Source of the DNA: a virus
IMG/VR virus record: IMGVR_UViG_3300015164_000003
Location: 1-42,943 of that record
Reading direction: 5' to 3' (one strand)
Length of the DNA: 42,943 nt
In this document: positions 1 to 42,943 of the stretch, piece by piece
Position numbering within the stretch: position 1 is the stretch's first letter
Layout: each line of letters opens with the position of its first letter
Notes under the pieces: model-generated
Database searches by the model: none
What the model saw: only the letters and a program-made list of their open reading frames with translations
Told to the model about the DNA's origin: nothing
Position numbers and translations under genes: made by a program

Positions 1-202
1 CGGTGCCGCGGGCCCCGGCGGTGGCGGTGCCGCGGTCCCCGGCGGTGGCGGTGCCGCCGTCCCCGGCGGTGGCGGTGCCGCGGTCCCCGGCGGTGGCGGT
101 GCCGCTGTGCCCGGCGGTGGCGGTGCCGCCGTACCCGGCGGCGGCGGTGCCGCGGTGCCCGGCGGTGGCGGTGCCGCCGTACCCGGCGGTGGCGGTGCCG
201 CC
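1..202. repeat. 24-bp tandem repeat, left arm
   Basis: Head-to-tail 24-bp units run from the first base to about 202; they encode one octapeptide each on the minus strand. Units differ mainly at the codons for repeat positions 7 and 8 (TAC, CAC or GAC followed by GGC, CGC or AGC). The same array resumes at the right-hand window end. Such arrays expand and contract easily and stall short-read assembly, which explains why the molecule was opened here. Confidence 0.95.
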
Positions 203-4807: not shown

Positions 4808-5271
4808 ACGTCCCCCTGCACCGGTTCGATGTCGGTCACGAGCCATCTGCTGCCGGTGCGTACGAGTGCTACCGACACACCATGCCGCATCCCGGTCTGC
4901 ACTACCCACACGGCGGTGGTGGGTGTGCTCCCGGCGAGTCCGGGGGTGCCGACGTGGGCGACGGTGATCCGGCGGGTGGTTTGGTCGAGGCCGTGGGCGA
5001 GCCGGGGGGTGGCGAGCCGCCGCATGGTGGCGTGCCACTGCGGGTCGGTGAGGCTGGGGCTGCCCCAGGCGCGCACGAACGCGGCAGCGACCGGCCCGGT
5101 CTGGGTGGCGGTGAGCGGGACGGGGGCGGCGCTCGCGTGCGGGGTCGGCGTCGGTGTGGGAGCTGCGACGACGACAGCGGTAGCGGTGGGGCGCAGGACG
5201 AGCAGCAGCCCGAAGCACACCAGGACGGCCAGGAGCAGCCCGGACAGGGCAACGATCGCGCGACGGGGCAT
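4804..5271 (-). CDS. Membrane-anchored NTF2-like protein of transfer block
   Basis: The 155-residue product begins MPRRAIVALSGLLLAVLV, a signal anchor to about residue 27. A Thr/Pro linker follows, then an extracytoplasmic domain ending VALVRTGSRWLVTDIEPVQG. That final pattern, with a Trp after a basic strand, is typical of NTF2-like folds used by TcpC/VirB8-type conjugation proteins and by small lipoproteins of actinobacterial plasmids. The start overlaps the upstream stop as TAATG. I infer a role in the cell-envelope part of DNA transfer. Confidence 0.55.
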   Translation of the reverse strand: MPRRAIVALSGLLLAVLVCFGLLLVLRPTATAVVVAAPTPTPTPHASAAPVPLTATQTGPVAAAFVRAWGSPSLTDPQWHATMRRLATPRLAHGLDQTTRRITVAHVGTPGLAGSTPTTAVWVVQTGMRHGVSVALVRTGSRWLVTDIEPVQGDV

Positions 5272-29162: not shown

Positions 29163-29358
29163 GCACGGCACGGCGGGGCTAGGCGCGGCGTGGCGGGGCT
29201 TGGCATGGCCCGGCAGGGCAAGGCAACTCAGGGGCTTGAGGTAGGGCGGCTGGCAGTCATCGGGGTTCGAGACCTCGACGCCCACGCACGGCACGGCGGG
29301 GCGAGGCAGGGCGGGGCGTGGCATGGCTGGGCTCGGCACGGCAAGGCAACTCAGGGGC
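29163..29358 (+). repeat. Two 73-bp arrays of GGCNN pentamers
   Basis: Copy 1 (29163-29235) and copy 2 (29286-29358) have equal length. Each is a row of twelve GCNNG units followed by the same tail, GCAACTCAGGGGC. Variable dinucleotides in copy 1 are AC, AC, GG, TA, GC, GT, GG, TT, AT, CC, AG, AA; in copy 2 AC, AC, GG, GA, AG, GG, GT, AT, TG, TC, AC, AA. The copies agree at both ends and differ inside. The 50 bases between them are not pentameric. Period 5 is incompatible with codon selection, so this is unlikely to be a protein gene even though one frame stays open. The second array ends 20 bases before the first cassette gene. Confidence 0.88.
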
Positions 29359-29378: not shown

Positions 29379-29960
29379 ATGGACATCCGCATGACCTTCA
29401 CCGGCACAACACCGCTACTCATGCACAGCGACGTAACAGTGAACGCACTCAACCCGCTCACCAAGGCCATCAAGAAAGTGACGAGCAAAAAGACCGGCAA
29501 GACCGACGAGGACCACGAAGAAATCGCACGACTCGAACACCTCGCAGGGCTCTACTTCGCAGAAGGCATCGGCCCCTACATGCCCGGCCGGAACGTCGAA
29601 GCCTGCCTCATCAAAGCGGGCGGCATCACCCGCATGGGCACGAAACTCAAGCAGGCACTGTTCGTCTCTACCGACACCAACCCGCTGGCCTACACCGGAC
29701 CACGAGACATCAAAGCCCTGTGGGCAGACGAAAACTTCCGCTACATGTCATCCGTCAAGGTCGGCCAAGCCCGCACGATGCGCTGCCGCCCGCAGTTTCG
29801 CGAGTGGAAGTTCGAATGCGAGGCGATCCTCGACACCAGCGTGATTGACCTTGCCGACCTGACGGACATCGCCGACACGGCCGGGCAGCGGATCGGCCTC
29901 GGCGACTTCCGGCCCCGCTTCGGCCGGTTCACGGCCACCGTGGAGCAGGCCACAGGGTGA
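29379..29960 (+). CDS. Orphan RAMP/Cas7-like protein (candidate), first gene of cassette
   Basis: 193 residues, AAGGA before the ATG. The N-terminus MDIRMTFTGTTPLLMHSD resembles the first strand and loop of RAMP proteins (pattern TPLxxxS). The C-terminus RIGLGDFRPRFGRFTATVE resembles their glycine-rich loop (GxGxxRxxxFGR). Between are conserved-looking blocks YMPGRNVEACLIKAGG, TNPLAYTGPRDIKALW and CRPQFREWKFECEAI. No CRISPR or other Cas gene is near. I recall homologues in unrelated phages and prophages, annotated only as hypothetical. RNA binding is an inference from the fold resemblance and from the arrays just upstream. It lies on the strand opposite to all structural genes around it. Confidence 0.7.
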   Translation: MDIRMTFTGTTPLLMHSDVTVNALNPLTKAIKKVTSKKTGKTDEDHEEIARLEHLAGLYFAEGIGPYMPGRNVEACLIKAGGITRMGTKLKQALFVSTDTNPLAYTGPRDIKALWADENFRYMSSVKVGQARTMRCRPQFREWKFECEAILDTSVIDLADLTDIADTAGQRIGLGDFRPRFGRFTATVEQATG

Positions 29961-30493
29961 GCCCCTTCAACCCGATCGGCGATGTTGCCCGATGGCGCAC
30001 CCTCTACGCCCTACTCGTGACCGTTCCCACTGACGGGGTCCTCACCTACGAGGACATGGCCGGCGCCCTTGATCTCCACCCCGGCGACGATCGACACACC
30101 ATTCAGATGGCGGTACGCCGCGCGGCCAAGGAGCACGAGGCCAAGGACAAGCGCGCCATCGAGTCGGTGCCAAACGTCGGGTACAGGGTGGTGCAGGTGC
30201 AGGAACACCTGCGACTCGCACGGAGCCAGCAAAAGCGTGCCGGGAAAGCCCTCGTGCGGGGACACTCCAAGGTCGTCAATGTCGACTTCAACGACATGCC
30301 CGCCGAGATCCGTAAGTCATTCGAGACCGTCGCGCACGCCTTTGCGATGCAAATGGACTTCAACCGGCGGTTTGACGTACGTCAGAGGCGGCTTGAGGAC
30401 ACGCTATCCGCATTCACCGAACGGTCACAGCGCACCGAAAGCGAGGTAGCCGAGTTGCGGGAGCGGCTCGCGCGGCTTGAACAGTCAACGTAA
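29957..30493 (+). CDS. Winged-helix/coiled-coil partner, second gene of cassette
   Basis: 178 residues, with a GTG overlapping the previous stop as GTGA. Residues 10-80 (RWRTLYALLVTVPTDGVLTYEDMAGALDL, IQMAVRRAAKEHEAKDKRAIESVPNVGYRVV) read as a winged helix of OmpR-like topology. A linker follows, with KALVRGHSKVVNVDFNDMP. The end is a coiled coil (RQRRLEDTLSAFTERSQRTESEVAELRERLARLEQ). It probably binds nucleic acid and oligomerises. It is translationally coupled to the RAMP-like gene and converges on the portal gene with a gap of only five bases. Confidence 0.7.
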   Translation: MSPFNPIGDVARWRTLYALLVTVPTDGVLTYEDMAGALDLHPGDDRHTIQMAVRRAAKEHEAKDKRAIESVPNVGYRVVQVQEHLRLARSQQKRAGKALVRGHSKVVNVDFNDMPAEIRKSFETVAHAFAMQMDFNRRFDVRQRRLEDTLSAFTERSQRTESEVAELRERLARLEQST

Positions 30494-42667: not shown

Positions 42668-42943
42668 GTTGTTGCCGCCGGAATAATGCGGCCCTGCTCG
42701 TCGCAGCGGTAGGCGGTGCCTGGGGTGAGGCCGTTTTCGCCTATGTACCCGATGGTGACGCGGTAGCGATCGCGGGCATCGTCGTACCAGCGCAGCTCGA
42801 CGGTGCCGCGGTGCCCGGCGGTGGCGGTGCCGCCGTGCCCGGCGGTGGCGGTGCCGCGGTCCCCGGCGGTGGCGGTGCCGCGGTCCCCGGCGGTGGCGGT
42901 GCCGCGGTCCCCGGCGGTGGCGGTGCCGCGGTCCCCGGCGGTG
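42664..42943 (-). CDS. Octapeptide-repeat protein, C-terminal part (gene split by window ends)
   Basis: Open from the right-hand end in the frame that reads octapeptides TAGDRGTA and TAGHGGTA. After about six units the sequence leaves the repeat as VELRWYDDARDRYRVTIGYIGENGLTPG and ends IIPAATT. This continues the gene that starts at the left-hand end. The capping segment with Trp and Tyr residues is typical for this repeat family. Together the pieces give at least fourteen repeat units. Confidence 0.85.
   Translation of the reverse strand, partial: TAGDRGTATAGDRGTATAGDRGTATAGDRGTATAGHGGTATAGHRGTVELRWYDDARDRYRVTIGYIGENGLTPGTAYRCDEQGRIIPAATT
42803..42943. repeat. 24-bp tandem repeat, right arm
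   Basis: About six head-to-tail 24-bp units. The last four are identical to one another, unlike the more varied left arm, which indicates recent duplication or homogenisation. Confidence 0.95.

Follow-up and report, generated by a model that had tools for sequence, protein, structure and literature searches.

A probable VIPR cassette with two pentamer arrays and a tRNA-like element in a virus of likely actinobacterial hosts

Two pentamer arrays and a gene pair

The viral record IMGVR_UViG_3300015164_000003, whose 42,943 bases we refer to as the window, carries two arrays of pentamers followed by two genes on the plus strand, and we are highly confident that these guide arrays and genes form a VIPR cassette of a tailed phage with high-G+C, probably actinobacterial, hosts. 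VIPR was described in 2026 (PMC13142463; bioRxiv 2026.04.26.720920 version 2, Doudna laboratory), and the main text of that preprint defines it by a Cas7-like protein (Vipr), an accessory protein (Vap) and vrRNAs built of GGY/NN pentamers. According to the same text, the vrRNAs of its model, Escherichia phage SUSP1, and of a prophage in Pseudomonas fulva consist of 9-16 YNNGG units plus a 3' tail and are recovered together with Vipr on purification; in SUSP1 the NN pairs recognise double-stranded DNA with a one-base skip, and a reporter is repressed (PMC13142463). It further reports that phage defence by VIPR is programmable and that natural targets lie in competing phages and satellites, and VIPR is argued to be an ancestor of CRISPR RAMP systems (PMC13142463).

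The first array (the vrRNA 1 repeat tract) lies at 29163-29235 and comprises twelve GCNNG units (GGCNN register 29167-29226) followed by GCAACTCAGGGGC, with the NN pairs AC AC GG TA GC GT GG TT AT CC AG AA. The second (the vrRNA 2 repeat tract), at 29286-29358, likewise comprises twelve GCNNG units (GGCNN register 29290-29349) plus GCAACTCAGGGGC, and its NN pairs are AC AC GG GA AG GG GT AT TG TC AC AA. Both are 73 nucleotides long and end in this common 13-nucleotide sequence; units 1-3 (AC, AC, GG) and unit 12 (AA) are the same in the two, and the inner units differ at eight of eight positions. An earlier reading of the locus from its letters alone (the sequence-only reading) had described two 73-nucleotide arrays of twelve pentamers with matching tails and end units, and our recount bore out this anatomy. 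No other run of 12 pentamers occurs in the window, the next longest run, over all 64 triplets and periods 4-8, being 5.

Twenty bases past the end of array 2, at 29379, is the ATG of vipr (29379-29960, plus strand), which encodes a 193-amino-acid protein of Cas7/RAMP fold (phrog_4652, E 5e-60). Pfam returned nothing for Vipr. An AlphaFold model made from a 61-sequence alignment reached a pLDDT of 95.8 and a pTM of 0.88, and all 50 of the PDB matches listed by Foldseek were CRISPR effector subunits or complexes (E from 1e-5), with Csm3/Cas7 of type III-A systems at the top of that list. The sequence-only reading had called the gene at 29379 RAMP-like, and since Foldseek matches it to CRISPR effector subunits, that label was right by fold. 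Vipr is also 35% identical (E 9e-42) to a SUSP1 gene (KT454805, 28474-29061) that, judged by position and homology, appears to be the vipr of the preprint.

The second gene, vap (29957-30493, plus strand), overlaps the end of vipr and encodes a 178-amino-acid accessory protein of the phrog_5926 family (E 3e-7), to which gp94 of the Felix-like phage wV8 also belongs. A profile built from the window Vap protein found matches in 80 of 94 loci. The Vap model has a winged-helix-like N-terminal part, a fold typical of DNA-binding regulators, and long C-terminal helices, so DNA binding is predicted. The locus thus combines a RAMP/Cas7-fold protein related to Vipr with a minimal vipr-vap pair in the structural region of a tailed phage, and its two tracts of 12 GGCNN units lie within the VIPR range of 9-16 units with a fixed GGY and hypervariable NN. 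Its vap1-family accessory gene, with predicted DNA binding, corresponds to type II as in SUSP1. The second gene and the orientation of the cassette, like the tRNA-like element described below (29244-29287), had been overlooked by the sequence-only reading.

A tRNA-like element downstream of the first array

On the 3' side of vrRNA 1, at 29244-29287 on the plus strand, lies a minihelix. Its outer, acceptor-like stem pairs GGGCG (29244-29248) with CGCCC (29279-29283) and encloses a D-like loop with GG, GCTGGCAGTCA (29249-29259), and an inner T-stem, TCGGGG (29260-29265) with CCTCGA (29273-29278), that is closed by the T-loop TTCGAGA (29266-29272); ACGC follows 3' of the acceptor. As read from its sequence, the element corresponds to one half of a tRNA, the acceptor and T-arm, together with a GG like that of a D-loop. 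Loci of actinophage type share this layout, in which the repeats are followed by a linker and then a minihelix with a 5-base-pair outer stem, a 9-12-nucleotide loop with GG, an inner stem of 6-7 base pairs and a TTCGANN loop, usually followed by ACGC or a close variant.

We compared the elements across loci and found an outer stem of at least 5 base pairs in 28 of 30, against 11% when partners were swapped between loci; because this stem was placed by searching for pairing, its share is inflated, and the swap control measures that bias. Among 26 distinct elements, nine of the 11 pairs showed changes on both sides, 99% of cells were paired (66% after shuffling, at most 56% after sliding) and the covariation score was 0.86, against 0.20 shuffled. 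Since a T-loop motif was what qualified an element for this set, the invariance of the T-loop follows from how the set was chosen. The window element folds as drawn in isolation.

Rfam at its gathering threshold gave no match in the window, and ARAGORN found no tRNA there. The sole weak Rfam match of the element, to mascRNA-menRNA (RF01684; E 0.93), scored 16.1 bits against a gathering threshold of 42.5, so the element is not a member of that family. Like mascRNA/menRNA, it would stack an acceptor stem on a T-arm with a T-loop, although those RNAs are animal and this one belongs to a phage. The main text of the preprint names pseudoknot tails and hammerhead-interspersed arrays and does not mention a tRNA-like element; its supplement may describe such tails (PMC13142463). 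We consider the element probably a processing signal or tail, and the locus probably a known kind of system of which the element marks a variant.

Two observations in relatives concern similar structures. Eight tRNA genes surround a VIPR cassette bearing tRNA-like tails in locus L009 (218-6862). Downstream of the genes in five Pseudomonas-like prophages (L065, L070, L079, L089 and L090) there is another inter-array element, GGGCTG...AATGCCCCTTCAATGAGGGGCATTGC..., which is repeated with apparent compensatory changes between loci.

Conservation of the arrays and candidate targets of the variable bases

Homologues of vipr occur in 129 phage records and in hundreds of viral contigs. Under a strict test, 42 of 94 loci have period-5 arrays with a fixed triplet and two free bases on the flanks of the gene pair, whereas the same test found period 6 in four of 94 and periods 4, 7 and 8 in none; several apparent negatives, read by eye, hold degenerate GGYNN with interruptions. 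Among the 120 viral stretches listed by a scan in the reverse direction, for nine GGY at five-base spacing, 90 have a vipr homologue, always within 2 kb and on the same strand in 88 of the 90. Arrays standing mostly without the neighbouring genes, the outcome that the sequence-only reading had named as telling against it, is thus not what we found. Across relatives the NN entropy is 3.92 of 4 bits (4,212 dinucleotides). High-G+C phages have GGC as their fixed triplet and Felix-like phages have GGT, and in a single locus (L011, 6162-6428) TGA replaces GGY at the same period near a vipr homologue. The arrays are upstream of the genes in the window and downstream of them in many relatives.

Among the matches listed, 30 of the 120 (GGYNN)8 stretches have no detectable vipr homologue, including L200, L204, L208, L232, L270 and L293. 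Some of these are truncated, and others may belong to other VIPR types or be coding repeats.

We tested as a target rule the NN pairs read with one skipped base between pairs, using a skip of two, a skip of zero and permuted units as controls. Read in this way, array 2 yields GANAGNGGNGTNATNTGNTCNAC from its eight private units, a sequence with an exact match in 29 viral contigs. All 29 matches are antisense to an open frame of at least 92 codons and fall on V-D/E-H-I/M-T-P-L-S, an HNH nuclease motif; xGG follows the motif in many of the target proteins (PLSxGG), and the four representative target open reading frames all match Pfam HNH. None of the matches of the control codes fell on an HNH-like motif (0 of 13 for skip 2, 0 of 4 for skip 0 and 0 of 8 for permuted units; 0 of 25 in total), so that by computation array 2 behaves as the one-base-skip rule of VIPR prescribes. 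The controls matter because most of the peptide is already fixed by the code, and we did not take VDHITPLS by itself as evidence, relying instead on the flanks, the frame, Pfam and the controls. A longest-open-reading-frame test placed 20 of the 29 matches in the wobble antisense frame, a result that is ambiguous because HNH genes are short and rich in G+C. The window phage has an HNH gene of its own, which reads DHVVPLS, and within its genome the nearest matches have four mismatches; since this gene differs from the guide, it would be spared. Array 2 is thus most likely aimed at HNH endonuclease genes of rival elements.

For an independent test of the code, we compared the arrays of the fetched loci with all fetched DNA outside arrays at skips of 0-5, dropping the array of L211 for low complexity. 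The clearest signal came from an L062 array (5052-5096), nine units of which, read with a one-base skip in the wobble frame, match exactly the vipr genes of three related phages (L091-L093); it matches further vipr genes with one mismatch, and its own locus has five mismatches to it. This fits the preprint, whose main text names other VIPRs as the targets of some vrRNAs (PMC13142463). The vipr targets of this array lie in L088, L091, L092 and L093 at 4073.

Proposed mechanism, alternatives and genomic setting

The RNA-protein complex, the one-base skip and repression are proposed for this locus by analogy with the relatives in the preprint's main text (PMC13142463). Each array would be transcribed as, or within, a vrRNA. 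Most likely, the tRNA-like element would let host tRNA-processing enzymes separate the vrRNAs or would cap vrRNA 1, and a role for RNase P and RNase Z in that processing is our inference. Vipr subunits would then assemble along the vrRNA with one subunit at each GGC, so that the NN pairs stay accessible; these would recognise double-stranded DNA, stepping over a single target base from one pair to the next, and the bound gene would be repressed with Vap assisting. For array 2, the skipped bases would fall at codon wobble positions of HNH genes. More tentatively, and with somewhat less than even confidence, we suggest a clade of actinophage VIPRs in which minihelices between the guides let host RNase P and RNase Z divide a multi-guide transcript into single vrRNAs and in which guides are directed against the HNH homing nuclease core of competitors, a target that the skipping of wobble positions would make hard to escape. 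If the processing reading is true, such minihelix-spaced guides would be a natural counterpart of engineered tRNA-spaced guide arrays.

Several results weigh against this account. A simple scan found no promoter at the locus, the window tail is no more stable than its shuffles (z -0.45), and array 2 has no tRNA-like element, just the shared 13-nucleotide tail before the vipr start codon. The HNH match spans eight of the 12 units, and the end units (AC AC GG, AA) hardly ever match, for which reason we treat these shared flanking units as constant ends. HNH motifs are very common in phages, so the number of matches says how abundant the motif is, and the 29 contigs include several near duplicates. 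No coherent target emerged for array 1, whose matches (11 viral and 45 genomic, the longest of 10 units in a Nostoc genome, L143) were scattered over mixed frames and indistinguishable from chance. Over all arrays the skip-1 excess is small (12 matches against 3 shuffled), and the local skip test rests largely on L062.

It could be argued from the partial match, the non-matching flanks and the silence of array 1 that the locus is a VIPR whose array 2 meets the HNH motif by coincidence, its true targets being other sequences. We regard this as unlikely, although it deserves serious consideration, because 29 of 29 matches fall on one motif in a wobble-aligned antisense frame while three control codes gave none in 25, and because the reading extends beyond the decoded residues, into PLSxGG in many targets and into Pfam HNH in the four tested.

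Far less probable is that the arrays are DNA-binding ladders or operators for Vap or Vipr that hold no guide information. The winged-helix-like fold of Vap and the position of the arrays upstream of the genes would suit operators, but near-maximal NN variability would not. Against it, too, many relatives have arrays downstream of the genes, there are covarying RNA-like elements between arrays, and coherent coding targets for the codes of array 2 and of an L062 array appear at a single skip length. A protein-binding ladder, one of two options in the sequence-only reading, is thus not needed, whereas its other option, a discontinuous guide, gains support from the co-occurrence of arrays and genes, NN hypervariability, the gapped target of array 2 and the preprint's experiments on relatives; the exact rule of one skipped target base had not been foreseen. 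As for a GC-rich microsatellite or the remnant of a repetitive protein gene, the high G+C of the window and the tandem period are in keeping with it, yet a period of five does not preserve a reading frame, NN varies against a constant phase and triplet, and Gordonia, Mycobacterium, Pseudomonas and Felix-like phages have homologous genes flanked by arrays of this architecture. This conservation with vipr refutes it, and we assign it a negligible probability, in agreement with the sequence-only reading. That reading had also set the arrays apart from CRISPR. No CRISPR array, Cas1/Cas2 or other cas gene was seen near the cassette, and Pfam and PHROGs gave no Cas match among the ten window proteins scanned.

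Compared with known systems, a VIPR cassette in the window would be most like that of SUSP1 (Felix-like, assigned to type II in the preprint's main text), with which it shares a Vipr homologue, the two-gene order, a short second gene and a tail 3' of the repeats; in the wV8 and Moogle loci, close to SUSP1, GGY/NN pentamers likewise flank the genes. Unlike SUSP1, the window has GGC throughout, both arrays upstream and a high-G+C host range, and it carries a tRNA-like element 3' of array 1 where the SUSP1 clade, according to that text, has a pseudoknot tail. Gordonia phages Trine and MakoManhole and Mycobacterium phages LittleE and prophiBWHA-1 share the gene pair, exact or degenerate pentamer arrays and tRNA-like tails, and differ in insertion sites and NN content, LittleE having arrays both up- and downstream. 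As far as the accessible text of the cluster J mycobacteriophage literature goes, the repeats are not described there. CRISPR class 1 effectors (Csm3/Cas7) are similar in their RAMP fold and in a variable part capped by a constant part, and the window is unlike them in its gapped guide and single small protein.

The locus belongs to a kind of system described only months earlier, and as it was found independently from raw sequence, it supports, for viruses of actinophage type, both the anatomy and the code of VIPR. The separation of tandem vrRNAs would be accounted for by a tRNA-like element linked to guides. A guide that spells the HNH catalytic motif, likewise absent from the main text of the preprint, would be able to act against many rivals by itself. 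The proposed tRNA-like processing is directly testable in relatives that can be cultured, such as Gordonia phage Trine and Mycobacterium phage LittleE.

The arrays and the two genes sit between scaffold and portal genes and run opposite to scaffold, portal and terminase; the SPP1-like portal, terminase, scaffold and major head genes are on the minus strand (Pfam/PHROGs). The terminase is closest to those of Arthrobacter phages (36%), and because most of its matches are in actinophages, an actinobacterial host is likely. No close DNA match to the window was found among known phages, PADLOC reported nothing on the window, and a search of genome contigs with a window protein found no relative. 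The same 24-base-pair tandem repeat, encoding (GAAVPGGG)n, occurs at both ends of the window (1-201 and 42801-42943), and the record is probably either circular or interrupted within a gene for a repetitive protein.
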